Assembly (NCBI RefSeq): GCF_900167975.1
Contig: NZ_FUZU01000004.1
Span: 310,001 to 374,000, forward strand
Origin: Ohtaekwangia koreensis
Lineage (GTDB): Bacteria; Bacteroidota; Bacteroidia; Cytophagales; Cyclobacteriaceae
Length of the DNA: 64,000 nucleotides
Direction: 5' to 3'
Part shown: positions 1-49,861 of the stretch, piece by piece
Layout: every line of letters starts with the position of its first letter
Numbering within the stretch: the stretch's first letter is position 1
Program-made: the position numbers and the translations under genes
Notes under the pieces: generated by a model
The model's input: only the letters and a program-made list of their open reading frames with translations
What the model was told of the DNA's origin: nothing
The model's database searches: none

Positions 1-2234
1 TCGTAAAATTTACTGTCTTTATATTTATTCAGATCATCACTTCCAACCTTCTCACCCTCTACCAGGATATCAAAATTTCTGCCCCGGTTGTCCATTCCCC
101 AATAGGTAGCAATTATACTGTGCGAAGCTTCCGGATTTACTTTCATGGTAAAGACAAGTTTACCGCCATCGCGTGCTACGCGGAATTTACGTGTGTGCGA
201 TTCACCTGCTTCCGTTTTCTCTCCCGAAAAATTGTGATCACGCTCAGGTTGCATCTCTCCTAACCGTATATAGTCTGTTGTACGCTGCTCGAGTGCATAT
301 TCTTCTTTCTTCTTTTCTTCATATACCTTCTGTTGCTCTTTCCAGGTTTGTGGAGTGAATACATCCCAATATACATTGTAGTGCTCATCATCCAGCGCAT
401 AGAATGGTTGAAGCGTTACGTCCGTTGGGAAGCCTGCCTGGTATGTTTTGAAAGTTAGCGGATCTCGCTCATCCTGTTTGAGCCACTGCTTTATATCGCT
501 CCCAGCCGTTACCAGCACAGGTATACCTTTCATGGGATCAGGTTCTGTTGTTCCTAAATTTCCTGCGAGCAATATGGGTCCATAAAAGAACGCCTTACGC
601 GAGACATTATCAGGCATCGCCATCGCATGTAATGTAGCAGGAAGCATAACTTCAATCACATCACCCTTCTTCCATTTTCTACTCACTACCCAGTATCCTT
701 CTTTGTCAGGTGCTATATTTTTAACAAACTCTCCGTTTACTTTTATCACAGCATCGGACTGCAACCAATACGGTTTACGAATGTGAATCGGGATAACCTG
801 AGGCTTCGCTGTGTTTATCGTAAATTTTACTGCGGGATCTACCGGAAGGTTCGCATTCAACGTAAGTTGAAATTCCTTATCGCGCCAATTCAACTGCGAA
901 GGTATAAATAGATTTATATAGAGACTTCCATCCTTCCCTTTGAAATAGATACTCTCACCATACTTTACATGATTCTCTATACCAGAACCAACGCAGCATG
1001 TAAACGTATTGAATTGATCACTGAACTCTTTCCGCGTACCCATACGCAACGGTACAAAGTAACACATCATTCCATCGTTATGGTTTTGAGATGCCAGGAT
1101 ATGATTATAGAGTGCCCGCTCATAGAAATCCATATAGTGTGCTGATGGCTGCAACGCAAACAAGTGCCGGGTAAGTTTCAGCATGTTATAGGTATTGCAC
1201 GTCTCCATGGTATTATCGGTGAGCTTGTCATTCAAGACATCGCGCTTGCTCAGGTATTCGTAATTACTGTTGCCTCCGGGTGCGAACGTATGGTGCTGAA
1301 CAACGGTGTTCCAGAAAAAATCACCAATAGCAAAATCATGCTTGTCACCGGTAACTTCGTACCGTCTCACCGTACCAATCGCCTTTGGTATCTGCGTGTT
1401 TGAATGTTTACCGGGTAGTACATCTATACCTACAGCAAGTGAATCGAGTATACGTTTGTCGTGAAATTTATACGAGAGGTCGAGGTATTTTTTGTTTTGT
1501 GTGAATGTATAGGTGTTTACCAAGACTTCATTCATGCCACCGTATTCGCACAATAACATTTTTTGAAGTTGTTCGTCATTCAGATTCTTGAGAATCGTTT
1601 CCGTCCAGTCTGCTATACCTTGTTCAACCTTTAAAGCCTTATCGTTGTTACAGTATAAATATGCATCAAGCAATCCGGCCATAACTTTGTGCACGGTATA
1701 CCATGGCGACCAGGCACCATTTAAATCGAATCCACGTGACCGTATATTTCCCTGTGACACTTCCAGAAATACAGTGTCCTCCTTGGGTATAGCACCCACG
1801 TATCCAGTCTTGCGCGCTTGCTGGCATTCGGCCAGTTCATCTACAATATAGTTTACACGCTTCAGATACTCCGGATCTCTCGACACCGCGTACTGCATGG
1901 CACATGCCGATAAGTAATGACCGAGTGTATGTCCTGCCAAACCCGAATCTTCCCAACCAGCGTACTTCGCTCCTTTTGGTTTCAAGCCGGAGTGCGTTCT
2001 GAATTGTGATAGCAAACGATCAGGTTCTATTACCAATAAGTATTTAAGATCAGCTTCCATCGCTTTCTTGAAAGGGCTTTCCAGCAAGACAACATCGTTC
2101 AAATGGAAAGTATATGCTTTTATATCTACGACTGGCTTTATCTTCACACGATCGTTACTCAGCTCCGGTACGTACGATTGCGCAATAGCAAGCTGAGCGA
2201 AGACAATCAAGAGCAGGGTTATTCGGGTTCTCAT
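1..2234 (-). CDS. GH146/GH127-like beta-L-arabinofuranosidase (DUF1680), 3' end outside window
   Basis: About 744 codons are visible from an ATG at 2234 and run off the left edge without a stop. A signal peptide of about 18 residues ending in AIAQ is followed by a DUF1680-type (alpha/alpha)6 barrel. The residues that bind zinc and act in catalysis in GH127/GH146 are recognisable: METC (Glu and Cys near residues 344 and 346) and TCCVG (Cys-Cys near 413-414). The segment WYTVHKVMAGLLDAY near residues 178-192 resembles the GH146 branch. Family members release beta-linked L-arabinofuranose from arabino-oligosaccharides, including chains on hydroxyproline, using a cysteine nucleophile. It starts 38 bp after the stop of the next GH127 gene on the same strand, so the two form one operon. 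The exact GH family (127 or 146) is inferred from motifs only. Confidence 0.85.
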   Translation of the reverse strand, partial: MRTRITLLLIVFAQLAIAQSYVPELSNDRVKIKPVVDIKAYTFHLNDVVLLESPFKKAMEADLKYLLVIEPDRLLSQFRTHSGLKPKGAKYAGWEDSGLAGHTLGHYLSACAMQYAVSRDPEYLKRVNYIVDELAECQQARKTGYVGAIPKEDTVFLEVSQGNIRSRGFDLNGAWSPWYTVHKVMAGLLDAYLYCNNDKALKVEQGIADWTETILKNLNDEQLQKMLLCEYGGMNEVLVNTYTFTQNKKYLDLSYKFHDKRILDSLAVGIDVLPGKHSNTQIPKAIGTVRRYEVTGDKHDFAIGDFFWNTVVQHHTFAPGGNSNYEYLSKRDVLNDKLTDNTMETCNTYNMLKLTRHLFALQPSAHYMDFYERALYNHILASQNHNDGMMCYFVPLRMGTRKEFSDQFNTFTCCVGSGIENHVKYGESIYFKGKDGSLYINLFIPSQLNWRDKEFQLTLNANLPVDPAVKFTINTAKPQVIPIHIRKPYWLQSDAVIKVNGEFVKNIAPDKEGYWVVSRKWKKGDVIEVMLPATLHAMAMPDNVSRKAFFYGPILLAGNLGTTEPDPMKGIPVLVTAGSDIKQWLKQDERDPLTFKTYQAGFPTDVTLQPFYALDDEHYNVYWDVFTPQTWKEQQKVYEEKKKEEYALEQRTTDYIRLGEMQPERDHNFSGEKTEAGESHTRKFRVARDGGKLVFTMKVNPEASHSIIATYWGMDNRGRNFDILVEGEKVGSDDLNKYKDSKFY

Positions 2235-2272
2235 ATATATTCGTTTTCTTATCAGGATATATAGTTGGTAAA

Positions 2273-4666
2273 TCAGTTTACAATCCATTCCATAATTCCT
2301 CCGGAATGATCCTTCATTGTTACTTCGAGGCGCAAGGCCTGCGTTGTTACCGGTTCAAAGGAGACTTCACTATACATATCTTTTTTTACATCATAAGCCG
2401 TTTTGTTCTTCACGGGTTTCCACGACTCACCATCTTTATACAGGAGTCGCCATCCTGCCGGTATACGACAACCTCCAAATGGTCCATCGTCAAACCAATA
2501 TACTTTGGATGATGAAACGGAGGCTGGCTTCTCAAAATTATACTGTACCCATTGCACCGTATCTTTTAGCGGCCACCAGTGGTAGAAGACTATGGATTGA
2601 TCAATGGAGCTCTTCCCTTCCATTTGATCGTTCAGCGCCATGAGTGTGCGCGTCTTGTGAGAAGCTTCTATTTTACTGGTAGACGCAATAGTTGGAGCTG
2701 GCAACGGTCTGGCTGCTCCCGCTATATCTGGGAGCCAAACCATCATTTCCCCGGCACCACGGTGTGCCCATGCGTAATAGGGAATCAATTTTACTTCTGT
2801 ATCAGTCGTTTTTGTTTCCGTAGGCGAAACACGGGAAGCAGATTTTCCAGGCCCGTCAATTTCATATATACCTTTGAGCATATCCGGTTTGAAACTTCCC
2901 GTCAGGGATGCTGTAGCAGGAAGTACCAGGTTCAGTACGCGACTATCTTTACTATCGGGCCACTCTGCACAATATACCAGTGGACCACGTTGTATCGCTA
3001 ACTTATCTTTATCAGCCTCTACCTTTGCATTGGCTGCGATTCTGCGAATCGGCATGGGAAGCTGTATATGGATGCGATCGCCTTTTTTCCATTTACGATT
3101 AAAAACTATATATCCTTGTTGCAAGGTTAATGCTACAGGCTTATCGTTCAGAAATACTTTGGGCTGCTCCTTATTTGCATCCTCAAATATATAGAGGTCG
3201 CTGGGTATAGGCTTGTTCACAGCCCATCCCGGTATACGGACGCGTACTTCAAACGCATCTGATTTTTCCGGGGTAACAGAAACCTGGATATCGCCATCCC
3301 ATGGATAGTTCGTTTTTTGTTCCAGTGTAACAGTGTTGGCAGCAAGTTTAAATTTTGCTGTACTTTCAGCGAATAAATTTACATAGAGTGCTTTATCTTT
3401 TTGTGCATAGAAATATCCGCCCACTGAAGGAACAAAACGTGCTACGTTACCGGGGCAACATGCACAGGCAAACCAAGGGCTACGAGCATGTTGTCCGTGT
3501 GACTCCAATGGATTGGGATAAAAGAATTTATCACCTGTAAGCGACACCCCCGACAGAAAAGCATTATATAGGGTGCGCTCCAGTACATCATAATATTTAG
3601 CATCACCATGCATGAGAAATAAGCGGTGATTCCAGTATACATTTGCAATAGACGCACACGTCTCATTATATGCCGACATGTTCGGAAGTTCGTACGGTTT
3701 ACCAAACGCCTCGCCATTGCCGGTGGCGCCTATCCCTCCCGTTACATATATCTTCTTTGACACAACATCTTCCCATATATCATCGATTGCTTTAATATAG
3801 GAAGGATCGTGTGTGAGCGCTGCTATGTCAGCCATGCCGGCATACATATAGGCAGCACGCACAGCATGTCCTACAGCTTCATGTTGGTCCACTACCTTGA
3901 GATGCGCCTGATTGTAATCATCTTTACCAGGCCCGCGTACATCGAGAAAAAACTTTCCGGCATCCAGGTATTTTTTATCACCAGTCTCCTGGTATAATTT
4001 GGCCATTGCTAATTCAATAATCTGGTGCCCGGGATAAATCTGTAATTTACCGGGACCAAAATCCGCACATACTCGGTCGGCAGCCTTGATCGCTATATTC
4101 AGAAAAGTCTTTTTACCAGTTGCATGATAGTGTGCTACCGCAGCTTCTATCAGGTGCCCTATATTATATAGCTCATGACTCAGGTCTTCCTCCATTTCCC
4201 AGCGTTTCTTACCGGCCCATTCGTGTGCACTGTCGCCCATGATGGTGCGGTTGGTATAGATATAGCCATCTGGTTCCTGTGCTTTGCCGATGAGGTCGAT
4301 CAATGAATCAACTTTTTTCTCGAGTGCCGGATCGTTGAAGATCTGGAAAGAGTAGCATGCTCCTTCAATGATCTTGTAAACATCGGTATCATCAAATGTA
4401 AATTCAGTACAGAAAACGCCAGTCTTCAATCCTGCAGCGATCTCAAAATTTTTGATGCGCCCGGTCTCCTTGCATTTACCCAACGTGAAGGGAATGGTAA
4501 CATCGTGATTCGTTTTAATGCGTGGTGCCCAAAAGTTATCCGACAATTTTACGGATGTAAACAGAATGGGATGAATGGGATAATCGCCATGCTGGGCATT
4601 GGCAGCAAAACCAGCGAGCCAGCATGCTACATAAAAACAGGAACGAAAAATTAAAGACTTTTTCAT
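2273..4666 (-). CDS. GH127 beta-L-arabinofuranosidase
   Basis: This 797-residue exported enzyme starts with a signal peptide of about 25 residues ending in ANAQ. A barrel of the HypBA1 type follows, with the HEAVGHAVRAAYMYAG segment typical of the family. The metal/catalytic set is present: Glu335 and Cys337 in NETC, and Cys403-Cys404 in CACCPG. In characterised GH127 enzymes the first Cys of the pair is the nucleophile and the Cys/Glu cluster binds zinc. The expected activity is hydrolysis of beta-L-Araf from Araf-Araf and Araf-hydroxyproline linkages. The C-terminal 250 residues form beta-rich domains usual for the family. It is the first gene of the operon with the downstream GH146-like gene, with a candidate -7 promoter box about 60 bp upstream. 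The periplasm or outer surface is the likely site of action. Confidence 0.9.
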   Translation of the reverse strand: MKKSLIFRSCFYVACWLAGFAANAQHGDYPIHPILFTSVKLSDNFWAPRIKTNHDVTIPFTLGKCKETGRIKNFEIAAGLKTGVFCTEFTFDDTDVYKIIEGACYSFQIFNDPALEKKVDSLIDLIGKAQEPDGYIYTNRTIMGDSAHEWAGKKRWEMEEDLSHELYNIGHLIEAAVAHYHATGKKTFLNIAIKAADRVCADFGPGKLQIYPGHQIIELAMAKLYQETGDKKYLDAGKFFLDVRGPGKDDYNQAHLKVVDQHEAVGHAVRAAYMYAGMADIAALTHDPSYIKAIDDIWEDVVSKKIYVTGGIGATGNGEAFGKPYELPNMSAYNETCASIANVYWNHRLFLMHGDAKYYDVLERTLYNAFLSGVSLTGDKFFYPNPLESHGQHARSPWFACACCPGNVARFVPSVGGYFYAQKDKALYVNLFAESTAKFKLAANTVTLEQKTNYPWDGDIQVSVTPEKSDAFEVRVRIPGWAVNKPIPSDLYIFEDANKEQPKVFLNDKPVALTLQQGYIVFNRKWKKGDRIHIQLPMPIRRIAANAKVEADKDKLAIQRGPLVYCAEWPDSKDSRVLNLVLPATASLTGSFKPDMLKGIYEIDGPGKSASRVSPTETKTTDTEVKLIPYYAWAHRGAGEMMVWLPDIAGAARPLPAPTIASTSKIEASHKTRTLMALNDQMEGKSSIDQSIVFYHWWPLKDTVQWVQYNFEKPASVSSSKVYWFDDGPFGGCRIPAGWRLLYKDGESWKPVKNKTAYDVKKDMYSEVSFEPVTTQALRLEVTMKDHSGGIMEWIVN

Positions 4667-4733: not shown

Positions 4734-5067
4734 CAGGAATGCAAAGGAGAGTTTTTTGTCGATCTTATCTCTTGCTGGTAAAATATTAACATGGAACAGA
4801 TCGCGATAAAATGATTTTTTTTTACAAAGCATGTCATCACCTTCACCTTTTCGGGAGCGCTATGCATCCTTGAAAAAGCAGATTGTCCTTTCAATTTGTT
4901 TTTTAACCATCCATACCAAAATCTGTTAAGTCGAGTGGGTGCTTGCATGATGAGGGCACTCAGAAACAATATTGAATAGCACCTTAATATAGCTAAATCA
5001 TTTCTATTCTGATTGATCGGTTATATTGCATAGAGCAAGCCGAAGACAATCTTTGTTAGTAGATCGC

Positions 5068-5108: not shown

Positions 5109-5606
5109 ATGACAACAAGCTCTATACCATTGCGAGTCCTGAAAAATACGTCCTTGATTTCATCGTTCATTTTCCTGACGATGATCATTGCCGGATGTAC
5201 AAGCCATCCTAAAACACAACCTCTTTCTGATAACCCTAAAGTTGCCGACATGCAGTATACCGAAACCTTCCAGTTAAGTACCTGTGATAAAATCATTTTG
5301 GAATACTATAACAAAATGTCTGATAAGCCCAATGGCATTGCTCCTTTGAAAAAAGCTACGGTTGTAGCAAAAGATTCTATCGAAAAAATAATAACACTCC
5401 TTCGCGCGTTGCCCGATGAAGGCGACATGATGGTAAAGATGGGTGATATACCTATTTTGAATGTGACACTGGTATACCCTGACAAAAGTGTATTTTTTAC
5501 TTACTATGAAAATTCAGTAAAGACACCGGCTACATCTTTTTATTCAGCACCACCAAAAGAAGAAAAAATTCTATTCGAATTGCTCATGGCGACTATCAAT
5601 CCGTAG
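5109..5606 (+). CDS. Small hypothetical lipoprotein
   Basis: The 165-residue product has a hydrophobic signal segment ending in a lipobox (IIAGC, Cys near residue 29), so it is probably an exported lipoprotein. The remainder is soluble and mixed alpha/beta, and I do not recognise a family. It stands alone on the plus strand, converging on the LuxR-type regulator that ends at 5644. A weak AT-rich hairpin (ATACAA/TTGTAT, 5616-5634) between the two genes could end transcription. Nothing in the sequence shows its role. Confidence 0.7.
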   Translation: MTTSSIPLRVLKNTSLISSFIFLTMIIAGCTSHPKTQPLSDNPKVADMQYTETFQLSTCDKIILEYYNKMSDKPNGIAPLKKATVVAKDSIEKIITLLRALPDEGDMMVKMGDIPILNVTLVYPDKSVFFTYYENSVKTPATSFYSAPPKEEKILFELLMATINP

Positions 5607-5643
5607 CTGGACCTGATACAAGCTATATTTGTATTCAGAGTAC

Positions 5644-6318
5644 TCATTCCATAGGAATCAGTTTGTTTTTGATCGCGTACTTTACAAGCTCCGCTGTATT
5701 CTTTAACCCGAGCTTATCAAGTATATGTGTTTTGTGTGTATCTACAGTCTTCGTACTGATGAATAATTGATCAGCAACTTCTTTATTGCTTTTACCATTC
5801 GCGACCAGCGCCAGTACCTCACGTTCACGCTTTGTGAGATCGGTAACTTTAAAATGTTGCTCCGCCTGCAACGTGCTCTTCTCTTTTTTATAGAAGTCTT
5901 CAAAGACGAGACTGGTAATCGCTTCATTAAAATATTTACCGCCTTTATATACCGAGCGAATAGCATCCAGCAATATGTGGCGCTCAACATCTTTCGGTAA
6001 ATATCCATCTATACCGGATTGAATTCCTGCGGTAACAAATTCTCTTTTTACTTCCATAGACAAGAGAATTATCTTAATCCGGTTATTGCGTTCTTTAATC
6101 CACCGTGTTGCTTCAATTCCCGTCATGCCTTTCAACATGATATCCATCAGTATAACTTCCGGAGCGAGCGAACTAACTTTGTTAACAGCTTCTTCGCCAC
6201 TGGAGAGTGCACCTACTACTTGAATATCATCAACTTGTTTGAGCATGATAGCCACTGCATCACGTACCAACGTATGATCATCAACGAGCAACACTTTTAT
6301 GCGTTCAGTCTTATTCAT
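5644..6318 (-). CDS. NarL/FixJ-type response regulator (REC + LuxR HTH)
   Basis: The 224-residue protein has a receiver domain (residues about 7-125) with acidic pocket DD at 13-14, phosphoacceptor Asp59 in LMDIML and the conserved Lys in LPKD. A linker leads to a LuxR/GerE helix-turn-helix (about 155-220) with the usual LTKREREVLALVANGKSNKEVA pattern. It is the last gene of a three-gene signalling operon and its first 8 bp overlap the 3' end of the single-domain receiver gene, so translation is probably coupled. It is the likely DNA-binding output of the neighbouring kinase. Target genes cannot be read from the sequence; the adjacent arabinofuranosidase operon is one possibility. Confidence 0.9.
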   Translation of the reverse strand: MNKTERIKVLLVDDHTLVRDAVAIMLKQVDDIQVVGALSSGEEAVNKVSSLAPEVILMDIMLKGMTGIEATRWIKERNNRIKIILLSMEVKREFVTAGIQSGIDGYLPKDVERHILLDAIRSVYKGGKYFNEAITSLVFEDFYKKEKSTLQAEQHFKVTDLTKREREVLALVANGKSNKEVADQLFISTKTVDTHKTHILDKLGLKNTAELVKYAIKNKLIPME

Positions 6319-6682
6319 TGGTCAGCATTCTAAATATGGAATCCATCAGATAATCATCATCAAAAGGTTTTGTGAGCAACAGATCTGCACCGGCTTCCTT
6401 TCCGGCCTGCGAGCTTTCTTCACTTGCGTCTGCTGTCAATACAATTATAGGTATAGCGCGATACCGTTCATCAGACCTCACATTACGAATGAAAGAAAGA
6501 CCATCCATCTCCGGCATTAACAGGTCGGTAATGATCATGTTCGGTATTTCTGTCGTCATCATGTTCAGCGCCACTATACCATTCTTCGCAATCTTTACTT
6601 TGAAGTCTTCCATCTCCAGCATATCAGCTATACTTTCCGCTAATAGTTTTGTATCTTCTACAATCAGAATATAGTTTTTCAT
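6311..6682 (-). CDS. Single-domain response regulator (CheY-like)
   Basis: All 123 residues form one receiver domain: acidic residues at 9-10, phosphoacceptor Asp53 in ITDLLMPEMDG, a Thr in VLTA and a Lys in LTKPF. There is no output domain, so it probably works as a phosphate shuttle or as a partner of the kinase. It starts 3 bp after the kinase stop and overlaps the LuxR-type regulator by 8 bp, which places it in the middle of a compact phosphorelay operon. Confidence 0.9.
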   Translation of the reverse strand: MKNYILIVEDTKLLAESIADMLEMEDFKVKIAKNGIVALNMMTTEIPNMIITDLLMPEMDGLSFIRNVRSDERYRAIPIIVLTADASEESSQAGKEAGADLLLTKPFDDDYLMDSIFRMLTNE

Positions 6683-6684
6683 GT

Positions 6685-9600
6685 TCAGCCAACCGGTATC
6701 ATCACTGTAAAAACTGTGCCTTCACCAGAATTGCTGGACACCGAAATTTTTCCTCCCACTAAATCAACAGCTTTTTTAACGATTGACAATCCAAGTCCTG
6801 TTCCCTGTATCGTTGAAACATTTGCACCCCGGTGGAAGGGATCAAAAATTTTTGGAAGCTCTGCTTCCGGAATACCAACGCCCTGGTCGCGCACGGTAAC
6901 AATCAACATTTCTCCTTCCTGGCGTCCTTCTAAAAAAATGTCTTCTTTTCCCGGTGAGAATTTGATAGCGTTGCTCAACAGATTTATAAAAATATTACGA
7001 AGTAAATCTTCATCTGTCTCAATTTCACTTTGCTTCAGGTCCAACGTCCGATGAATAGTATGCGAGCGTTTAAAGATGTTCTCGACTTCATGCTGTATAC
7101 CTTCCAGAAAGGTACTGAAATTTACCTTTCGTTTCGATATCTGAATTTTACTTTCTTCCGTTCGCCCCAACGTGAGCACCTCTTCCAACATATGTGTCAT
7201 GTGATCGACTTGTTGCTGTACAACTTTGATCTTACTATCAATCGCTTCTGCATTCATGCGACCTTTATATCGCTTGATGTGATTGACGGATAGCCTTATC
7301 GTTGCAAGGGGCGTACGAAACTCGTGAGAGACCATCGATGCGAACCTGCTTTTTAAAGTTACCAGTTCCTTTTCTTTTTCCAACGCTTCTTCCAATTTAT
7401 GCGTCCGTTCTTTTACTTTGTCTTCAAGTGACTGACGATACTGTGTTAGCTCTGTTATATCTTGTCCAACGGCTATGAGTCCAATAGTTTCTCCTGAAGA
7501 ATTTCTTCTCGGAGTTGCACTGAGCAGCAAAATAATTTTATTACCTGCGCGATTTACAATGGCAAATTCATAATGACTTACAGGATACCCCTGCAACACC
7601 GATCTGAGCAACAGGTCAGTATCTTTCCACTCGTCCGGATGAACCAACAGCTCCATTATTTTTTTACCAAGAGCATGCTCCTTCGTATAGCCAGTAACAG
7701 AAATAGCAAGTTTATTCCATTCATTTATCTGCCCGTTTCCATCAATTCCTAAAATTACTGCATTCGCATTTTCAATTAACTCGGATAACTCTTTGGCACT
7801 CGCTATAATTTTACGTTCATATTCTTTATGAATGGTTACATCTGTTTCAACAGATATAAATTTGGACAACTTGCCGCGTTGATCGAATACCGGATTTATA
7901 CTCATCTTCAACCAGAATTTTCGGCCATCCTTGCTATAGTTCAGCACTTCTTCGGTAACCGGTACGCAGGCATCCAGTTTCTGACGAATACGATCGAGCG
8001 TTGTACGATCTGTCTCCGGTCCCTGCAATATCTCTTTCGGTTTACGTCCAACAATTTCGTTTAATCTATAGCCTGTCAGTTTTTCAAAACTTTCATTTAC
8101 CCATTCAATTTTCTCTTCAGCATCGGTGATAATTACCAGGCTGTCCGTTGCACTGGCCACCATGGAGAGACGTCTGATCTCGTTGTTGGCTCTCGTGAGA
8201 ATATCAATATCCTGCATGGCACCAATCATGCGAACAGGTTTTCCTTCGCGATACAAAATATAGCCACGGTTGAAAACATATTTATAAGTACCATTTGCAC
8301 AACGGAATCTATAGGTAGCAGTCATGTTTGTATCGCCTTTCATAATATAGGACGAAAGTTCATCGATGACGCGCTGTTGATCGTCTTCGTGTATATTTTC
8401 GATCCACCAGTTGCCGGTATATACACGCATCTCTTTGCCATATCCGAAAATAGCCTCGAGCCCGTGATTCCAGATCACTATATCATCTACCAGGTTCCAA
8501 TCCCACACGGCATCATTCGTAGCGCGCGAGAGCATTTCGTACTGCTCATTCATGGCCTGGATATTTCGCTCAGTTTGCTTGCGAAGGGTTATATCACGCG
8601 AGAAACATCCCACACCAATCACCTGGTTCTTTTCATTATATACCGGATTGAGTGTGACTTCGAAACATAATGGCTGGTCCGGCTGTAACCTGTTCTCTTC
8701 GTATTCCTCCGTGAAGTGTTCACCGGATAAAGCTCTTCGATAAAATTCCGACCACCTGATACGCATGTCTTCCTGCAAATCGGAAAAAAGCAACGAGTCG
8801 CCAATCTGCACAGTGATGTTGTTGAATTGACGCACGGCTTCAAAGAACGTGTTATTTGCTTTTACCAATTTCAATTCATAATCCACAAGCCAGATCTGAT
8901 CGGGTGAACTATTGATAAGGATATCAAGACTTCGCTCACTTTCGCGAAGTTTTTTTTCCGCCTCTACCCTGTCCGTTATATCATTTGCCGTGGAGATGAT
9001 CATCGGGCCATTCTCCATTTCAACGATGTCCATGGAAAATAACACATCAATCACGCGATGTGTTTTGGTATATAGCTTGATCTCCTTATTTCTTACTTCC
9101 TCACCATTCTTAAGGTCCCGAACAAATTGATTACGGCTTGCACGATCCAGCCAGATGTTAAGATCATCAACATGTTTACCAATAACCTCCTCACGCGTAT
9201 AGCCCAGCACTTTTAAAAAGATCTCATTTACTTCAATATAAATACCTTCAAAAGTGGAGAGCGCTAATGCAACTACCGGGTTGAAATGAAATAGCTTCGC
9301 GAACCGCTGCTCGGAAAGCTGCAGTGATCTATATGCACTTTTAAGTTTAATATAATTTTCATTGCGCTCAATCGAGTGGAGTATAGCACGCCTTAGTATG
9401 CGTTTGTCCAACTGATTTTTATTGATATAATTTTGAGCGCCTTCGCGAAGTACCTGGACAGCCATGGCCTCATCATCTTCTTGCGTAAGTACAACCACCG
9501 GACTTAAGGGATACGATTCATTGATCTGACGCAACATTTCAATGTCCGCTATATTTACCAGGTCTAGTCCAAACAATACTACATTCACGGAAGACTGTCC

Positions 9601-9744: not shown

Positions 9745-9901
9745 CGTTAAAATAAAATTCAAACAAACTCATTTCTATCAAGACAATCATGACGGCTTTT
9801 TTGCTAACTCGCCCCTACATGATGTGATTTCTAAAAGCACATTGAGATTAAGTACTTGAAGAAAAGGAATTTAAAAGCATTGTATCAACCAACACAAAAC
9901 A

Positions 9902-9945: not shown

Positions 9946-10043
9946 ATTACGATTTGATTCAAACATTTCAGCCCAATGATAGAATGGTTCTGAATAATGG
10001 CAAGATATTACGCTCAACAACATCCACGTGATGCTAATAAGCA

Positions 10044-40946: not shown

Positions 40947-41030
40947 AGAATAGTGTTAATAGTGTACGTCATTTATATATTAAATGTAACACTGACACCA
41001 TGCGATAATTCACGCTATATTAACTAATGC

Positions 41031-41046
41031 TAATAGTATATTATCC
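41031..41046. promoter_or_regulatory. TAATAGTATATTATCC element upstream of SusC-2
   Basis: This agrees at 14 of 16 positions with the element upstream of the hydroxyproline operon (46211-46226), in the same orientation and at a similar distance from the start codon (85 versus 79 bp). Confidence 0.5.
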
Positions 41047-41130: not shown

Positions 41131-41290
41131 TATATGATAAAAAATAAGGACGTATTGATAGCAAGCCAGAACAGTATGCTATGGCAAATAGAATTATCAG
41201 GTATATATTGAACTCTATACCGAAACAAAAAAAATACTATTAACGAATTTACTTTACTATTGAACAATAGCTTATAAGATATTATCCCAT

Positions 41291-41310
41291 TGTGATATTA
41301 TTTTATCACA
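41291..41310. repeat. 7-bp perfect inverted repeat TGTGATA-6-TATCACA
   Basis: Arms at 41291-41297 and 41304-41310. It shares the TGTGATA half-site with the dyad at 41106-41130, with the half-sites oriented the opposite way round. It lies 345 bp upstream of SusC-2 and 54 bp before the terminator hairpin of the next operon. Confidence 0.55.
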
Positions 41311-42699: not shown

Positions 42700-43701
42700 C
42701 TATATTACCTGAAAGCCGTGTGCATACGGGTCTTCTTCATCATCCATGATGATAGTGTTATACCCGGTAACCACAGCCCACCCTTCGATACTGGGTATAA
42801 TAGCAGGCTTGCCATGCAGATCGGTTTCTTCTTCCACACGCCCTATAAATTTAGAGCCGATTATACTTTCGTGAATGAAAGGCTCACCTTTCTGAAGTTT
42901 GCCTTTTGCGTGCCACTGCGCAAGACGTGCAGAAGTTCCCGTTCCACACGGTGAGCGATCTATAGCTTTATCTCCATAGAACACTGCATTACGGGCGGTT
43001 GACGATGAGTCGATCGGCTTGCCTGCCCATAGTATGTGACTGCATCCATTAATGGTCGGATCATCCGGATGAACAAAGGTATAGTTCGCATTTATGTTCT
43101 TCCGCAGCGTACGACTCCAGCCAATCAGCTGCTCAGCTTTGAAATGTTCCAGACCCGGAAAATTTTCCTGTACATCTACAATAGCGTAAAAATTACCACC
43201 ATAGGACACGTCCATTGTTAATGATCCGAGATCGGGACATTCCGCCACTATATTTTCGGCTGCGAGGTATGCTTTTATATTCCTGATCTTTACTGACTTT
43301 ACTTTCTTGCCTTCCTGTTTATAGTCTATGGTAATGATACCAGCCGGCACTTCGAGACGCAATGTGCCCGGAGTTTTGGGTGTGATCAATCCTTCCTCTA
43401 TAGCGATCGTCACAGTACCAATTGTACCATGGCCACACATCGGAAGACAGCCGCTGGTTTCAATAAAGAGTATACCCATGTCGTTCTGCGGATCGGTAGG
43501 CGGATATAGTATACTTCCGCTCATCATATCGTGGCCACGTGGTTCAAACATTAGTCCCTTACGGATCCAGTCATACTCCCGAAGAAAGTGCTGGCGCTTC
43601 TCGCTCATATTTTTACCTTCCAGAATTGGGCCTCCGCCCGCTACCAGTCTTACCGGGTTGCCACACGTGTGTGCATCGATGCAAAAAAAAGTTTTCCTCA
43701 A
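42700..43701 (-). CDS. 4-hydroxyproline 2-epimerase (proline racemase family)
   Basis: The 333-residue enzyme has both catalytic cysteines: Cys89 in PMCGHGTIG and Cys252 in SPCGTGTSA. Two Cys indicate an epimerase, whereas the related trans-3-hydroxyproline dehydratases have Thr in place of the second. It interconverts trans-4-hydroxy-L-proline and cis-4-hydroxy-D-proline, the first step of the pathway. The start is a TTG at 43701 that overlaps the ALDH stop as TTGA; the next in-frame Met (residue 32) would remove the conserved HTCGNPVR segment, so the TTG start is preferred. Translation is probably coupled to the aldehyde dehydrogenase. Confidence 0.93.
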   Translation of the reverse strand: MRKTFFCIDAHTCGNPVRLVAGGGPILEGKNMSEKRQHFLREYDWIRKGLMFEPRGHDMMSGSILYPPTDPQNDMGILFIETSGCLPMCGHGTIGTVTIAIEEGLITPKTPGTLRLEVPAGIITIDYKQEGKKVKSVKIRNIKAYLAAENIVAECPDLGSLTMDVSYGGNFYAIVDVQENFPGLEHFKAEQLIGWSRTLRKNINANYTFVHPDDPTINGCSHILWAGKPIDSSSTARNAVFYGDKAIDRSPCGTGTSARLAQWHAKGKLQKGEPFIHESIIGSKFIGRVEEETDLHGKPAIIPSIEGWAVVTGYNTIIMDDEEDPYAHGFQVI

Positions 43702-45188
43702 GCTTGTTGCAGATTAAAAGTTTCTATGGCGTTGTGTGTCCATGTTCCGTTCACACATCGTAAAATGTTCAGTTCATTTTTATTTTTCAATTCGAGCGGC
43801 AGCAGGTCTTCAGGAAAATCCTGGTAACATACAGGGCGTACGAAACGATATATAGCGTCTGTTCCCACGGATGTAAAACGACTATCTGTACTGGATGGAA
43901 AAGGGCCTCCGTGATGCATCGCTTTTGTTACCTCTACGCCAGTAGGCACTCCGTTGAAGATCAACCTTCCGCAGCGTGCATGCAACGAATCAACTACATC
44001 CTGATAGTCTGGTAATTCTTCCGGCAATCCAAAGATGGTGGCTGTCAATTGTCCTTTCAGTGATTCTATCACGGCGAGGAGTTGCTTTTCATTTTCACAT
44101 TTTACAATCAATGAATACGGGCCGAATACTTCTTCCTTTAAAACTGTATTTGCTATAAAGTTGTGAGCATCTACTAATGCAAGCCCCGGTGCGCCTTGTC
44201 TGTCCGTTGTCTCTGCTATACCTTCCACCAATCTCAGCACGCCTTTCTGTTTTAGCGCTTCCGATTTTTTATGTTTGTAACTGGCCGCTATACCGGTGTG
44301 CAACATCGTACCAGGAGCAGCCTGTGCTATTTCAGCTGACAGCTTATGAAGGAAAGGAGCGAGTCCATCTGTATCGATCGTGATGAGTAGACCTGGGTTC
44401 GTACAAAATTGTCCTGCGCCAAGCAAAATAGAAGAAGCCAGGGTGGGTGGCAATGTTTTATTCTCGCGCACAATACCTGGCAATACAACCACGGGATTTA
44501 TACTTCCCATTTCAGCAAAAACAGGTATAGGCTCTTCACGCTGGTTTGCTATATCAAAGAGGGCTTTTCCTCCCTGGTATGATCCTGTAAATGCTACGGC
44601 CTTTGTAAGCGGATGCTTTACCAATTGCTGGCCGGCTTCTATACTGGTATCTGTTACTTCCTGAAATATATCTTCATGAAGATTGCATTGCTGTAAAGCG
44701 GCACGAATTGCATTGGCCACGAGGTTTGACGTACGTGGATGTGCCGGATGACTCTTCACTACAACGGTACAGCCAGACGCCAACGCTGATGCAGTATCTC
44801 CGCCCGCGGTGGAAAATGCCAATGGAAAATTACTCGCTCCAAATACTACAACCGGCCCTACCGGATATAGCATCTTACGCAAATCCGGTTTCGGTGCAGG
44901 TTTGCGTTCGGGATCACCAGTATCAATGGATGCCTGTAGCCAGTCACCCGCTTCTAACAATTTCGCAAATGACTTTAACTGATTGGTTGTACGTCCGCGT
45001 TCATTTTTCAAACGCGGTTCTGGCAGGCATGTTTCTTCCATGGCAGCCTGAATCAATGCATCCCCTAACAGATCGATCTGTTCTGCTATAGCGTACAGAA
45101 ATTCTGCACGCTTCTGCGGTGTTATCTTCTTATATACTTGAAAAGCTTTCTCTGCACGATATAGTACATCTTCACGTTGGTCACTCAT
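43698..45188 (-). CDS. 2,5-dioxovalerate (alpha-ketoglutarate semialdehyde) dehydrogenase
   Basis: The 496-residue aldehyde dehydrogenase has catalytic Cys262 in GAGQFCTNPG and general base Glu226 in VFAEMGSINP, both typical of the NADP+-preferring type III KGSA dehydrogenases. It oxidises 2-oxoglutarate semialdehyde to 2-oxoglutarate, the last step of hydroxyproline catabolism; the same step occurs in oxidative L-arabinose and D-xylose pathways, so it could also serve arabinose. It begins 2 bp after the DapA-like gene and overlaps the epimerase by 4 bp. Confidence 0.92.
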   Translation of the reverse strand: MSDQREDVLYRAEKAFQVYKKITPQKRAEFLYAIAEQIDLLGDALIQAAMEETCLPEPRLKNERGRTTNQLKSFAKLLEAGDWLQASIDTGDPERKPAPKPDLRKMLYPVGPVVVFGASNFPLAFSTAGGDTASALASGCTVVVKSHPAHPRTSNLVANAIRAALQQCNLHEDIFQEVTDTSIEAGQQLVKHPLTKAVAFTGSYQGGKALFDIANQREEPIPVFAEMGSINPVVVLPGIVRENKTLPPTLASSILLGAGQFCTNPGLLITIDTDGLAPFLHKLSAEIAQAAPGTMLHTGIAASYKHKKSEALKQKGVLRLVEGIAETTDRQGAPGLALVDAHNFIANTVLKEEVFGPYSLIVKCENEKQLLAVIESLKGQLTATIFGLPEELPDYQDVVDSLHARCGRLIFNGVPTGVEVTKAMHHGGPFPSSTDSRFTSVGTDAIYRFVRPVCYQDFPEDLLPLELKNKNELNILRCVNGTWTHNAIETFNLQQA

Positions 45189-45190: not shown

Positions 45191-46132
45191 TTATACTTGT
45201 ATAGCTTTTTCTTTCTTTTTCAGGTTGAGATAGTCAGGTAATGCTGGGCGATTTTCAATTCCCTCGCGGATGATATTAAGAACCTCTTCGCGTTCTTTAC
45301 CAATAAGCGTCAATCGCGGAGCGCGCACAGTTTCGGTACCGATCCCGGCCTCTGCTTCCGCAAGTTTTATATACTGCACAAGCTTGCTATAGGTATCAAG
45401 TTCGAGCAAGGGCATGAACCAACGGTTAATCTCTACAGCTTCCTGTATACGACCGGCCTTCACCAGTCTATAGATCGCGACTGTTTCCGCAGGGAAAGCA
45501 CACACTAACCCGGCTACCCAGCCTTTTGCTCCCATCACCAGACTTTCCATGGCGAGGGTATCAACACCACTCATTATGCTGAAGCGGTCTCCGAAGCGAT
45601 TGATCATGCGCGTAACATTCACCACATCGCGTGTAGATTCTTTTACAGCATCTATATTTTTACAGGCTGCTAGTTCTTCAAACATATCCAGCGTAACTTC
45701 AACTTTATAGTCCACGGGATTATTATAGATCATGATCTGAAGATCAGTAGCTTCTGCTATAGCTTTGAAGTATGCAACCGTCTCCCGGTGATCTGATTTA
45801 TAGCGCATGGGTGGCAACATCATCAATCCGCTCAGACCTGCCTTCGCTGCTGACTCGGCAATCTTTACCGCTTCACGTGTTGAACCTTCTGCAATGTTTA
45901 ACACCACCGGAACCTTACCCTCTACTTTTTCAAGTGTATATTTCAGTAATGAATTCTTTTCTTCGTTTGTCAATACGCTTGACTCACCCAGCGTTCCTCC
46001 GATAATTATTCCATCCACTCCGGCATCAAGCTGTTTATCGATGTTCACACCAAACATATTAAAATCCAACGTGTCATCCTTTGTAAACTTCGTTGTAACG
46101 GCTGGAAAAACCCCTTCCCATGTAATCTTCAT
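45191..46132 (-). CDS. DapA-family protein, probable 1-pyrroline-4-hydroxy-2-carboxylate deaminase
   Basis: The 313-residue class I aldolase-fold protein of the DHDPS/NAL family has Tyr136 in MIYNNPV and Schiff-base Lys164 in AVKEST. In hydroxyproline operons this family member deaminates 1-pyrroline-4-hydroxy-2-carboxylate to 2-oxoglutarate semialdehyde, and its place directly before the KGSA dehydrogenase and epimerase supports that role rather than lysine biosynthesis. It is the first gene of the four-gene operon. A candidate -7 box and several inverted repeats lie in the 166 bp upstream. Confidence 0.88.
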   Translation of the reverse strand: MKITWEGVFPAVTTKFTKDDTLDFNMFGVNIDKQLDAGVDGIIIGGTLGESSVLTNEEKNSLLKYTLEKVEGKVPVVLNIAEGSTREAVKIAESAAKAGLSGLMMLPPMRYKSDHRETVAYFKAIAEATDLQIMIYNNPVDYKVEVTLDMFEELAACKNIDAVKESTRDVVNVTRMINRFGDRFSIMSGVDTLAMESLVMGAKGWVAGLVCAFPAETVAIYRLVKAGRIQEAVEINRWFMPLLELDTYSKLVQYIKLAEAEAGIGTETVRAPRLTLIGKEREEVLNIIREGIENRPALPDYLNLKKKEKAIQV

Positions 46133-46196: not shown

Positions 46197-46210
46197 CGAT
46201 TAGCAGGTAG

Positions 46211-46226
46211 TAATACTATATTATCA
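46211..46226. promoter_or_regulatory. TAATACTATATTATCA element upstream of the hydroxyproline operon
   Basis: Reference copy of the recurring element; 14 of 16 positions agree with 41031-41046 upstream of SusC-2. It lies 79-94 bp upstream of the ATG at 46132. Confidence 0.5.
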
Positions 46227-46298: not shown

Positions 46299-48104
46299 TC
46301 AGTTTCGCAGCCAGTCTTTTAAAATCAAAGCCTGAAGTGCATCCGGAGTTTTAAAAGGGGCCATCTCAAACGTATGCAACATACTTTCTCCGACTGTTAT
46401 TGCCACATCATGCTGTCGTCCGCGGTGTGTATATTGAAGTTTTATAACATCTCCTGCACGAGACGATTTAAGAATTTGCTCAACGTTTTGCCGGTTTGCG
46501 CTTTGTTCGTTTACCTTCAGTATGATATCCTGACTGCTAAGACCTGCGTGCCATGCCGGTGAATTCCATTCTACCTGACTGACGATAAGTTTCTCACTTT
46601 CATTCTGAAAAGAAACACCCAGGTGTCCTCCTGAAGCTTTATCTGGAGTTACATCTATTGACAATCCTGCATATGCAAGGTACTTACTATAGTCAATCGC
46701 TTGGGTGGTGGAAGCGTACTCAAAGATCTCTTGCAAAGAAGTACCGGCTACAGTCTCACAGGTTTGTCTGAACTCATCGTCTGTAAACCCACGTTGCTTC
46801 TCTTTGAAATATATAGTATATAACGATCGCATCACATCATCCAGCGATTTTCGGTTTTTGGTTTCATGCCTGATCTTCAAGTCCAGTAGCATGCCTAATA
46901 CCGCCCCTTTGTTATAGTACGATATAGTGGTGTTAGCGGTGTTGTCGCTTCGGTTAAAGAACTGGATCCAGGTATCAAAACTTGATTCTGTAGCAGATTG
47001 AAATAATCTTCCTGGTATATTTTCATATTGAAGTATATCGCCTTGCAGAAACTTCAGCACATCATTTCGGCTGATCAACCCGGCTCGGTTCAGGATCAGG
47101 TATTCATAATATACTGTAAAGCCTTCGGATACCCAGAGCATGTTTGTATAATTTTCCTGGTCGTAGTTGAAAGGGCCCAACGCTATCGGCCTAATGGATT
47201 TGATGTTATACAAATGAAAATATTCATGCGTCAGAAAATTAAGCCATCGCTTATAGCCTTCAGTGTCCGCATTATTATAGACTGCACCGTTGGAAAACAC
47301 AGCCGTTGAGTTACTGTGCTCAAGACCGCCTCTGCCCTCTCCCATGATAATGAATGTATAGTGTTTATACGGAATGTCGTTTACAACTTTTACAGCACTC
47401 TCGATCATCTGCTTCAGATCACTAGCTAATTTCTGCTTATTAAATTTCTCTGGTTCTTCAAATGCTATAAAGTGCGGTATCCCTTGTACATCAAAAGACA
47501 AGATCTCCTGGTTGCCAACGAGTATCGGACTATCGTATAGTACATCAAAGTCTGGCGCTATATAGGTATTGCTTTTACCGGGTACTAAATCAAGCCCTGT
47601 AGTAATTTTATTCCACGATTTATACGGTTTGATTTCGATGGTAGAAGGATGCTTTAGTGCTCCATCTATATACATGAAAACACCTGCCGGAGAAATATAG
47701 CCTCGTGCTTCATCGAGGAATGGGTCTGCTACAGATTGGGTATTTGCATAAACGTCATACCGGATGGTTACTGTCTTTACTTGTTTTGTTGTAACACGCC
47801 ATGTGTTCTTGGTGGTCTTCTGCCATGAGAGTAGTTTTCCATCACTCGTCTCTGCACGAAAGCTCACTACATTCCTGGCAAAATTTACAAGCCAGTAATA
47901 ACCTGGCGTCCACGCAGGAAGTTTGAAATCCAGGTATTCACCTTTCACATCCTCACATGTAAGTGTTATATGATAATAATGTGTATTGGGATTTTCCATG
48001 GAGACCGAAAATTTCATCGCACCGCCAACGGTCTGCGCCTTCACCTGGAAGACTGCGAATAGTATTATAATAGTTAAATACCAGAAGTATCTGCTTATGT
48101 TCAT
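46299..48104 (-). CDS. M61-family peptidase with C-terminal PDZ domain
   Basis: The 601-residue exported gluzincin has a signal peptide of about 23 residues ending in VKAQ, an N-terminal beta domain, and a catalytic domain with zinc motif HEYFH (His293, Glu294, His297) and third ligand Glu327 in WVSEGF. A PDZ domain (about 485-575) follows. M61 enzymes are broad aminopeptidases with a preference for Gly/Ala; here it probably trims imported peptides in the periplasm. Its ATG overlaps the permease stop as TAATG, which indicates a two-gene operon pairing peptide cleavage with amino-acid uptake. Confidence 0.9.
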   Translation of the reverse strand: MNISRYFWYLTIIILFAVFQVKAQTVGGAMKFSVSMENPNTHYYHITLTCEDVKGEYLDFKLPAWTPGYYWLVNFARNVVSFRAETSDGKLLSWQKTTKNTWRVTTKQVKTVTIRYDVYANTQSVADPFLDEARGYISPAGVFMYIDGALKHPSTIEIKPYKSWNKITTGLDLVPGKSNTYIAPDFDVLYDSPILVGNQEILSFDVQGIPHFIAFEEPEKFNKQKLASDLKQMIESAVKVVNDIPYKHYTFIIMGEGRGGLEHSNSTAVFSNGAVYNNADTEGYKRWLNFLTHEYFHLYNIKSIRPIALGPFNYDQENYTNMLWVSEGFTVYYEYLILNRAGLISRNDVLKFLQGDILQYENIPGRLFQSATESSFDTWIQFFNRSDNTANTTISYYNKGAVLGMLLDLKIRHETKNRKSLDDVMRSLYTIYFKEKQRGFTDDEFRQTCETVAGTSLQEIFEYASTTQAIDYSKYLAYAGLSIDVTPDKASGGHLGVSFQNESEKLIVSQVEWNSPAWHAGLSSQDIILKVNEQSANRQNVEQILKSSRAGDVIKLQYTHRGRQHDVAITVGESMLHTFEMAPFKTPDALQALILKDWLRN

Positions 48105-49546
48105 TACGGTTCAGCAACAGGGACTACTTGATTTTTTCTTTTCAGGATGAAGTAATATACCGGAATGCCCGCCAGGATTATCGCCAGTCCCGGAAATGTA
48201 TACCGGGTCTCGAAGATGAGTAACAAGACCGCCAGTCCGGAGGCCACGATGATGTAGATGGCCGGCAATACGGGGTAACCAAGAGCTTTATAGGGGCGGT
48301 GTATTTCAGGTTTCGTCTTCCGAAGAATATATATACCGATGATGGTGAGTACATAAAAGATGAGTACACCGAAGATTACAAGCGCCAGCAGATCATTATA
48401 CTTACCGGTTAAGCACAGCGCTGAAGCCCAGATACATTGTAACCACAAGCTATAGGCAGGCACTTCATATTTGTTCAGTACACCCGCTTTGGCAAAGAAG
48501 AGATTATCTTTCGCCATGGTATAATATACGCGTGCACCTGCCAGGATCAGTCCGTTATTACAACCAAACGTAGAGATCATAATGGCAATGGCAATGATCA
48601 TCGTACCCGCAGGACCAAATATATACTCTGCCGCTACAACCCCCACACGATCACTTTTGGCAAAGGCTATAGCATCCAACGGAATTACCGCGAGATACAT
48701 CAGGTTGGTCAATACATAAATTACGGTAACGATCAGGGTGCCCAACATCAGGCTGAGGCCTATATTTCGCTTGGGATTCTTTACTTCACCGGCAATGAAG
48801 GTGATGTTATGCCACGAATCGCTGGAGAATAAAGACCCTTTCATGGCAATGGCAATCGCACCAAAGAATGCAAGGCCTGATAACACTGAAGACACAATAT
48901 GTCCATTCTCCATGGAAAGTCCTGATGCCGTCCACGGGTTCTGCCAATTCAAATTCCAGGTTTCTGCTTTTGCTCCCCATATAAAGCCGCAGAGTATCAA
49001 GGCTGCCAGCGAAATGATTTTAATAATTGTAAGAAAAGTCTGAATGAACGCTCCATTTTTAACACCTCTGCTGTTGATATAGGTTAGCAATACAATCACA
49101 GCGATAGACACAAGTTGAGATGCTTTCAATTGGAATCCGCCAATCGATAACAGTATATTTTCTTCACCCACAACCGGGATGAGATATGAAGTAAATTTAG
49201 CAAACGCCACACCTACTGCTGCAATGGTACCCGTCTGAATGATGGTAAAGAAAGTCCATCCGTAGAGAAAACCAATGAGTGGGCTATAGGCTTCCCGCAG
49301 GTATACATACATTCCTCCAGCTTTCGGATACATTGCCGAAAGTTCACCGTAACTGACGGCAGCGATGATTGTAATTATACCGGTGAGCACCCACATCGCT
49401 ACCAGGTAACCTGCTCCTCCTACACTGCGTGTAATTTCAGAAGTAACAATAAAAATACCTGAACCAATCATTGATCCGGCAACGATCATGGTTGCGTCAA
49501 GCAAGCCGAGGCGAGGTTTAAAATCCTGTTTACTTTCGTTCGTCAT
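48104..49546 (-). CDS. APC-family amino-acid permease
   Basis: I use the ATG at 49546; a GTG 48 bp upstream would add an unlikely N-terminus. The protein is about 480 residues with 12 predicted membrane helices and the APC signature GSMIGSGIF in the first helix, where the substrate amino group is bound. It imports amino acids at the inner membrane by H+ or Na+ symport or exchange. It is coupled to the M61 peptidase gene (TAATG overlap) and lies just upstream of the hydroxyproline operon on the same strand, so hydroxyproline or proline is a plausible but unproven substrate. Confidence 0.9.
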   Translation of the reverse strand: MTNESKQDFKPRLGLLDATMIVAGSMIGSGIFIVTSEITRSVGGAGYLVAMWVLTGIITIIAAVSYGELSAMYPKAGGMYVYLREAYSPLIGFLYGWTFFTIIQTGTIAAVGVAFAKFTSYLIPVVGEENILLSIGGFQLKASQLVSIAVIVLLTYINSRGVKNGAFIQTFLTIIKIISLAALILCGFIWGAKAETWNLNWQNPWTASGLSMENGHIVSSVLSGLAFFGAIAIAMKGSLFSSDSWHNITFIAGEVKNPKRNIGLSLMLGTLIVTVIYVLTNLMYLAVIPLDAIAFAKSDRVGVVAAEYIFGPAGTMIIAIAIMISTFGCNNGLILAGARVYYTMAKDNLFFAKAGVLNKYEVPAYSLWLQCIWASALCLTGKYNDLLALVIFGVLIFYVLTIIGIYILRKTKPEIHRPYKALGYPVLPAIYIIVASGLAVLLLIFETRYTFPGLAIILAGIPVYYFILKRKNQVVPVAEP

Positions 49547-49861
49547 GAAAAAATAAATTTTATAGGTGCGTGTTAATTTATGAGTATGGGTCACAACAAA
49601 ATTAATCGCAAAACGAAGTGGTATAGGACGTTAATTACCTTCCTGTAATACGATTTTCACCTTTGAGGGAGGTTAATGCTATACATTGAAATTCACAAAC
49701 ACATGCACAACAGACAGACGCTGTAGCAACGAGAGCATTCCGGGAAGAAAATGTTCTTTTAAAACGACAGCAAAAATTGAACAGGTGAATACTAAAAGCT
49801 AACGCTATAACAAGAAAACAGAAAACACACCTGCCAAAATTCAGAAGTATACATGGTTTAT
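49547..49861. other. Upstream region of the permease-peptidase operon
   Basis: This 315 bp stretch has one candidate -7 box (49597-49604). I see no gene, no TAATA/TATCA element and no strong hairpin, and no terminator for the LuxR-type regulator that ends at 49862. Confidence 0.5.
49597..49604 (-). promoter_or_regulatory. Candidate -7 box (TAATTTTG) for the permease-peptidase operon
   Basis: The minus strand reads TAATTTTG, matching TAnnTTTG, 51 bp upstream of the ATG at 49546. No -33 element was recognised. Confidence 0.4.

Follow-up and report, generated by a model that had tools for sequence, protein, structure and literature searches.

Gene content of the locus

We analysed a 64,000-nucleotide stretch of the 7.24-Mb genome of Ohtaekwangia koreensis (contig NZ_FUZU01000004.1, positions 310,001 to 374,000; G000:C3:310001-374000 in our numbering), here called the window, which holds a locus that combines arabinofuranosidases, SusC/SusD pairs and peptidases with genes for hydroxyproline (Hyp) catabolism. 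An earlier note on this DNA had proposed that the locus handles the sugar and the protein parts of the same plant wall glycoprotein. The window proteins were scanned against Pfam and NCBIfam (39 proteins in the Pfam scans), while signal peptides and lipoprotein-like starts were judged by eye. The genes named earlier (arabinofuranosidases, SusC/SusD, peptidases, permease and Hyp genes) were all present, with some corrections given below. All listed cluster genes in the window lie on the minus strand, as had been described for almost all of them, and the coordinates below refer to that strand unless stated otherwise.

At the left edge, a gene for a GH146-type beta-L-arabinofuranosidase (3-2288; PF07944 403.6 bits, PF20620/PF16375) continues out of the window to G000:C3 309880. 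The full-length protein has 802 aa and a signal peptide, and its catalytic domain is nearer to the solved structure 5opj_A (501 bits), which we take to be a GH146 enzyme, than to GH127-named structures (at most 62.4 bits). This gene is overlapped by a gene for a GH127 beta-L-arabinofuranosidase with a signal peptide and a C-terminal F5/8-type domain (2273-4666; PF07944 385 bits). The best solved relative of the GH127 protein is 6ex6_B (783 bits), and its motifs ETCAS and CACCP, which would provide the Cys3-Glu zinc site, align with 6ex6 and 4qjy; zinc ligation by such a site has been described (PMC10850190). An assignment as aceric-acid hydrolase was ruled out, the NF049879 score being 504 bits against a cut-off of 950 and the best solved relative being 6ex6. 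The third arabinofuranosidase is a GH51 alpha-L-arabinofuranosidase (24351-26918; PF22848, PF06964), which appears to be secreted. No GH121 protein was named by the Pfam scans of the window proteins, which include no dedicated GH121 model.

The peptidase that had been called a surface gluzincin turned out to be a homologue of Svx (21128-24070; DUF6055, PF19527 456 bits). It carries the gluzincin signature HEFAH-X27-E (H153, E154, H157, E185), in agreement with the pattern HEXXH-X(8,28)-E, together with a signal peptide, a stretch matching the second domain of Svx, an FN3 domain, a ricin-type lectin domain and a sorting tail for the type IX secretion system (T9SS). The Svx/AvrXca model NF040510 aligns over residues 15-572, up to profile position 574 of 601, which would take in the second, acyltransferase-like domain; the predicted fold of the protein was of low confidence (mean pLDDT 48). 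With 226 bits against a curated cut-off of 625, the protein is a homologue rather than Svx proper. An Svx from Pectobacterium was reported to cleave carrot extensin, for which its second domain was required (PMC13164431). Further peptidases are an S9 dipeptidyl-peptidase-IV-like exopeptidase with a signal peptide (27292-29532; PF00326, PF00930) and an M61 peptidase with a signal peptide (46299-48104). A DUF885 protein that may also act on peptides is encoded to the left of this stretch (L001:18102-19844). The M61 and permease genes share position 48104. M61 was absent from all 35 Hyp-operon neighbourhoods (within 10 kb) of other genomes, and we therefore rejected it as a cluster member.

The Hyp genes comprise an FAD-dependent D-hydroxyproline oxidase/dehydrogenase of the D-amino-acid oxidase type (HypO, 41410-42657; PF01266 240 bits, NF001933 277 bits with a cut-off of 383), a 4-hydroxyproline 2-epimerase (HypE, 42700-43701; NF010578 598 bits, cut-off 376), an aldehyde dehydrogenase (ALDH) that is presumed to act on alpha-ketoglutarate semialdehyde (43698-45188; PF00171 136 bits, best equivalog NF042993 at 78 bits) and a DapA-type deaminase (45191-46132; PF00701 205 bits). 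Upstream of them lies an amino-acid permease gene (48104-49594; PF13520 194 bits), which is kept in several relatives. The epimerase of the Hyp-to-2-oxoglutarate pathway is thus identified by a curated equivalog. The oxidase, deaminase and dehydrogenase belong to the right families in the right order, and none of them reaches a curated equivalog cut-off. Of the complete four-enzyme operon proposed earlier, the epimerase is assigned by its curated model and the other three members by family and position.

Two tandem SusC/SusD pairs occur together with the GH51, GH127 and GH146 genes, as in a polysaccharide-utilisation locus (PUL). SusC1 (37974-40946; TIGR04056 732 bits) is paired with SusD1 (36357-37955; PF07980), and SusC2 (32831-35974; TIGR04056 744 bits) with SusD2 (31324-32811; PF07980, PF14322). 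The SusC2 operon continues with a protein without Pfam match, unk196 (30711-31301), which has homologues in G074 (62% identity) and G440 (31%), and with a DUF5007-like protein (29707-30699; PF16398 24.0 bits, just under the cut-off of 25), which has the same gene order in these two genomes. Both these proteins and both SusD proteins have lipoprotein-like starts. The two pairs reported earlier are hence confirmed, but a third pair exists at 58497-63187.

Two further members belong to the locus left of the window, namely the DUF885 gene and, divergent from it, a gene for a regulator of the AraC family that weakly matches a cupin domain (G000:C3:307105-307968; L001:17105-17971). Within the window, the GH127/GH146 half is separated from the other half by genes at 5109-21032 (two-component, Ada, NhaP and others) that look unrelated, as the earlier note had remarked.

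A shared operator and an AraC-family regulator

Both halves of the locus are preceded by a direct repeat, G-N-TAAWAT-NN-TATYA-N5-AG-N-TAATAT. Copies of this operator lie 110 bp before GH127 (4762-4790, two mismatches), 207 bp before GH51 (27111-27139, one), 77 bp before SusC2 (36037-36065, one; a weaker copy with three at 36109-36137), 85 bp and 347 bp before SusC1 (41017-41045 and 41279-41307, none in either), 79 bp before the DapA-type gene (46197-46225, three) and 52 bp before the permease gene (49632-49660, two). The consensus was composed after the sites in the source genome had been viewed. At up to three mismatches in 84 kb, all ten sites were located before cluster genes, of which the HypO site, situated in a gap of 42 bases, is doubtful. 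At up to two mismatches in the whole genome, nine sites were found, seven of them in the locus, compared with two for a reversed control pattern. Since the consensus was written post hoc, the seven locus sites are not independent evidence, and the informative part is the scarcity of sites elsewhere (two, equal to the reversed pattern).

A motif of 29 bases was also trained exclusively on 31 promoters of relatives, chosen by its training score and scanned against 163 kb of the source genome. Its eight best sites were those before SusC1 (two), the permease gene, araC, dapA, GH127 and SusC2 (two), and the ninth and tenth, which score nearly the same as the eighth, lie inside an open reading frame (ORF; L003:13901) and 85 bp before a second svx-like gene on contig C2. 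The copies listed above scored 25.9 (distal SusC1 copy, the top score), 24.4 (proximal SusC1 copy), 23.6 (permease), 16.3 (dapA), 15.9 (GH127) and 11.7 (GH51), where 138 background promoters gave a 95% point of 17.6 and a maximum of 34. This background includes promoters of unlabelled cluster genes, and scores of about 14, such as that of the second svx-like gene, are thus weak. Because the training promoters belong to orthologous genes, the scan benefits from promoter conservation; the sharing of the site by unlike promoters within one genome is independent of such conservation. In relatives, operator-like sites were found before the permease gene, dapA, SusC1, GH127, GH51 and araC, and in G074 also before S9 and svx-like genes.

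The third SusC gene, PBP1, the LuxR gene at 49862 and the gene for a T9SS protein at 10905 were left out of the regulon because their operator scores did not exceed 0.3. An alternative motif placed 9 of its 12 top sites upstream of cluster genes (3.6% of the sequence), having been selected out of 360 starts for this very outcome, and our conclusions therefore rest on the motif selected by training score. The first motif control was set aside, as orthologous promoters were among its targets. A simple TTTG/TAnnTTTG promoter scan gave one irrelevant match.

The AraC-family protein has a single match in its own genome at E <1e-25, which is itself. Among 24 genomes searched, its best match adjoins the Hyp operon in eight (G016, G118, G010, G142, G085, G001, G199, G229), lies within the arabinofuranosidase cluster in seven (the source genome, G150, G074, G015, G149, G136, G127) and is 13 kb from GH127 in Cnuella. 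In G521, G440 and G364 the best match is elsewhere, and the Hyp or GH clusters of these genomes hold weaker ones; matches were elsewhere in G025, G031 and G237, and none was found in G061 and G133. The arabinofuranosidases of the window are thus adjoined by an AraC regulator of the Hyp-operon type. This protein presumably binds the operator, and regulator and operator together would provide a mechanism by which the two halves of the locus may be co-induced.

Conservation of the neighbourhood

The earlier reading had been staked on a conserved gene neighbourhood, and it survived this check. In five relatives (G074, G127, G015, G136 and Chryseolinea serpens) the Hyp operon lies beside GH127, in four of them with GH146, and varying sets of S9, DUF885, GH51 and SusC1/SusD1 genes are found alongside. 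The gene orders are GH51-araC-DUF885-GH146-GH127-S9-HypO-HypE-ALDH-x-permease in G136, SusC1-SusD1-DapA-ALDH-HypE-HypO-S9-GH127-GH146-araC-GH51 in G127, SusC1-SusD1-POT transporter-permease-DapA-HypE-HypO-GH127-GH146-DUF885 in G015 and permease-DapA-ALDH-HypE-HypO-S9-GH127-GH146-araC-GH51 in C. serpens; G074 resembles the latter, without GH146. A search with the window GH127 gave 54 places in 37 of the 148 family genomes. Seven of the ten best places, which align near full length, have an epimerase gene within 40 kb on the same contig, at 38 kb in the source genome, 3.7 kb in G136 and in G127, 3.9 kb in G074, 1.5 kb in G015, 22 kb in G142 and 33 kb in G009, and another of the ten, G061, had no epimerase match. 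None of the other 44 places, several in fragmented assemblies, has an epimerase gene within 40 kb on one contig. The epimerase itself scores above cut-off in 63 of the 148 family genomes. G150, a closer relative with a GH127 protein of 85% identity, shows a gap of 22 kb between the epimerase and GH127 genes, and its locus is devoid of M61 and of the svx-GH51-S9-SusC2 block.

These data bear on the idea of two independent loci that lie near each other by chance in this genus. Such an arrangement would fit the window, where a 36-kb stretch with partly unrelated genes separates GH127 from the Hyp genes. It would also fit the family at large: of 25 genomes, only 4 have GH127 at most 10 kb from the epimerase, the other 21 Hyp operons having none at this distance. 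Direct adjacency in five relatives, however, indicates that the wide spacing in the window is not typical. Together with the recurrence of the linkage elsewhere, the best matches of AraC and the shared operator, this makes a chance neighbourhood highly improbable.

The peptidases were followed in the same way. The S9 homologue (at least 47% identity) is present in 19, and an Svx homologue in 11 (L139 included), of the best 80 among 586 confirmed GH127 relatives in named genomes. DUF6055 is rare, occurring at E <1e-60 in 8 of 395 class genomes and above cut-off in 10 of 148 family genomes, partial matches included. Eight of 18 Svx-like genes (15 genomes) have a GH127/146-family gene at most 20 kb away, where 0.45 would be expected, and in 5 of 11 Svx-bearing genomes with an epimerase the latter lies within 20 kb of such a gene, where 0.25 would be expected; both expectations assume random placement, with no correction for relatedness or assembly breaks, and the epimerase search did not extend to G301. 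The HEXXH motif is present in 27 of 28 listed Svx homologues, the exception (L076) being cut by a contig end. The Svx model is covered almost completely by the window protein and its G229 counterpart (46.8% identity); four other homologues scanned, one a fragment, align best up to about position 449, the peptidase part. The second svx-like gene of the source genome (G000:C2:212031; L031:19031) has, unlike the window svx gene, the weak operator-like site mentioned above. In 13 of 35 genomes a DUF885 gene is found no more than 10 kb from the epimerase gene, in seven of these without GH127 or GH146 there (G043, G064, G070, G085, G047, G001, G391). DUF885 proteins may cleave Pro/Hyp peptides.

Linkage in other lineages

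An oxidative Hyp gene was present in the fetched flanks of 4 of the same best 80 loci. In Cnuella takakiae (Chitinophagaceae) the epimerase gene is 14 kb from GH127, and in a class sample it lies 7.9 kb (G199), 2.9 kb (G521), 3.5 kb (G440) and 5 kb (G364) from a GH127/146-family gene. In G229 a single cluster (L177 and L188) combines Svx type-GH36-M24-GH43-GH42-x-DUF885-GH127-like-S9-permease-HypO-HypE-ALDH-DapA with araC and SusD1-SusC1.

Collagen could also supply Hyp, in which case the arabinofuranosidases would be chance neighbours. The S9 and DUF885 proteins could act on Pro/Hyp peptides of any origin, and a Colwellia cluster is reported to couple an M9 collagenase with Hyp catabolism (PMC7883544). 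No M9 collagenase was found among the 39 window proteins scanned, though, and the presence of the same operator before GH127, GH51 and Hyp genes, along with the recurrence of the GH127-Hyp link in other families, renders this explanation quite improbable.

Two of the 80 loci, both from metagenome-assembled genomes (MAGs), contain HypD and its activase, in the orders activase-HypD-GH127-DUF885-S9-GH146 (L081:2416-12937) and HypD, activase, S9, GH43-like, GH127 (L130:2795-12349). HypD of L081 scores 1320.6 bits (cut-off 1100) and 1073 bits to the solved HypD 6vxc, and the activase, at 395, falls just below its cut-off of 425. A search of 19 genomes revealed HypD in 8, and in two of these it is close to GH127; in G159, G160 and G165 the genes are on different contigs and in G158 they are 515 kb apart. 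The loci with glycyl-radical HypD beside GH127 and S9 represent an anaerobic counterpart of the Hyp-GH127 linkage.

In the human gut species Phocaeicola vulgatus ATCC 8482, Svx-like, GH97, GH43-like, GH127 and S9 genes stand in a row among SusC/SusD genes (L095; NC_009614.1:1487548-1509947). This is a candidate extensin locus; we found no open-licence paper naming both P. vulgatus and extensin.

A proposed regulon for Hyp-rich glycoproteins

The neighbourhood and operator data constitute strong evidence for one regulon that leads from glycoprotein to amino acid. We propose, with a probability of about 0.76, that it serves plant Hyp-rich glycoproteins (HRGPs) that carry short arabinofuranose (Araf) chains on Hyp, of the extensin type. 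The joined use of sugar and protein from the same glycoprotein, as suggested earlier, is supported by the recurring neighbourhood, the shared operator, the AraC regulator and the Svx homology. Extensin is the likely substrate rather than another Hyp-arabinoside glycoprotein.

The Hyp chain of extensin is Araf-alpha1,3-Araf-beta1,2-Araf-beta1,2-Araf-beta-Hyp (PMC7263609), and the GH146 enzymes XeHypBA1 and Bll4HypBA1 are reported to be active on Araf-beta-Hyp (PMC10850190). GH51, GH127 and GH146 together could therefore strip this chain without GH121. In the pathway that we envisage, with the order of steps and the compartments of the enzymes being conjectural, the T9SS-exported Svx homologue would cut the glycoprotein and the SusC/SusD pairs would import arabinosylated glycopeptides. 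By analogy with characterised relatives, the alpha-Araf cap would be taken off by GH51, the beta-1,2-Araf units by GH127 and the final, Hyp-bound Araf by GH146. The S9 and DUF885 proteins may then release Hyp from peptides, the permease may import it, and epimerase, oxidase, deaminase and dehydrogenase would convert it to 2-oxoglutarate.

Several observations weigh against this proposal. Most Hyp operons and most GH127 genes that we saw are unlinked: 76 of the best 80 GH127 loci, many on short contigs, have no oxidative Hyp gene in the flanks fetched; in G402, G277, G538, G460, G391 and G502 the places seen of GH127/146-family and epimerase genes are not close; and G438, G237, G477 and G524 gave no epimerase match. 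In G001 and G085, GH127, S9 and SusC1/SusD1 are together and the Hyp operon is elsewhere. Among the genomes examined, a Svx-like gene stands at a Hyp cluster only in the source genome, G074 (of a different type) and G229, and no operator precedes the svx gene (score -5.6) or the S9 gene (score -2.0) of the window.

The nearest solved relatives of the two beta-L-arabinofuranosidases, 6ex6 and 5opj, are presumably BT3674 and the arabinan enzyme BT0349. BT3674 (GH127) is reported to work on larch arabinogalactan together with exo-galactanases, whose part is not shared by BT0349 (GH146), reported to act on sugars derived from arabinan (PMC10850190). The locus might accordingly target arabinogalactan-proteins or pectic arabinan, with GH127, GH146 and GH51 trimming arabinose caps and the Hyp operon using the arabinogalactan-protein backbone. 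We consider this unlikely, given that no galactanase or pectinase family was found among the window proteins scanned, that an Svx homologue and a Hyp operon are present, and that the GH36 protein of G229 would suit the Ser-O-alpha-Gal of extensin.

On the broader scale, we lean towards a phylum-wide modular system for Hyp-rich glycoproteins, in which one GH127 clade would be combined with S9, DUF885 and Svx-like peptidases and SusC/SusD proteins. To this would be added the oxidative Hyp pathway or, in anaerobes, HypD, with gut Bacteroidales such as P. vulgatus having no nearby Hyp pathway. The soil lineage would have recruited an AraC regulator of the Hyp operon, bringing the parts for sugar, transport and amino acid together in a single regulon.

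Comparison with known systems

PULs of Bacteroidota combine SusC/SusD pairs with lipoproteins and glycoside hydrolases, all presumably controlled by one shared regulator; the present locus differs in that it ends in the catabolism of an amino acid from the protein part. Among open-licence papers (titles and abstract openings), we found none describing a SusC/SusD locus joined to Hyp catabolism. The HRGP arabinoside system of Bifidobacterium longum consists of HypAA (GH43), HypBA2 (GH121), HypBA1 (GH127) and an ABC importer (PMC7263609). This system removes beta-arabino-oligosaccharides from the Hyp of extensin-type glycoproteins and, like the present locus, possesses a GH127 enzyme. It uses GH121 and imports beta-Ara2, and the accessible part of that report mentions neither peptidases nor Hyp catabolism, whereas the window combines GH51, GH127 and GH146 with SusC/SusD, peptidases and a Hyp pathway. 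Xanthomonas euvesicatoria has XeHypAA, XeHypBA2 and XeHypBA1 (PMC6085000), the last a GH146 enzyme acting on Araf-Hyp (PMC10850190), with an adjacent prolyl oligopeptidase gene. That peptidase gene is reported as broken, GH121 is present, and Hyp catabolism is not mentioned in the accessible part of the source (PMC6085000).

The Colwellia cluster likewise unites polymer breakdown, transport and Hyp catabolism within about 21 kb, but it belongs to a gammaproteobacterium, is directed at collagen and, in the accessible text, has no glycosidase named (PMC7883544). Pectobacterium Svx (PMC13164431, PMC9266454) shares the gluzincin HEXXH-E signature, and the window homologue aligns to NF040510 over a length that would include both Svx domains; the homologue differs by its predicted T9SS export, its FN3 and lectin domains and its score below the cut-off. 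For Latescibacteria, HRGP use with GH127 acting on extensin arabinosides was read from the genome sequence, and the accessible text describes no locus linking GH127 to Hyp catabolism (PMC4454575).

Bacterial extensin use is little known, and the published systems, as far as their accessible descriptions go, end with the removal of sugars (B. longum, Xanthomonas) or with cleavage of the protein (Svx). For the present locus a complete route is predicted, which would take the wall glycoprotein into central metabolism and be governed by one regulator. The locus also offers a concrete operator and regulator for testing, hints at a function of DUF885 proteins and brings up candidate extensin users from soil and gut.

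Of the remaining features, a small ORF at 5109 lies on the plus strand and does not enter into these results. The T9SS-exported protein at 10905-15443 comprises 1512 aa with PA14-like and Ig-like parts and is kept in G150 and G148 (77-78%). Finally, a MAG labelled Chitinophaga sp. (L066; CABHOK010000002.1), which may be misnamed, shows the gene order of the window at about 66-94% protein identity.

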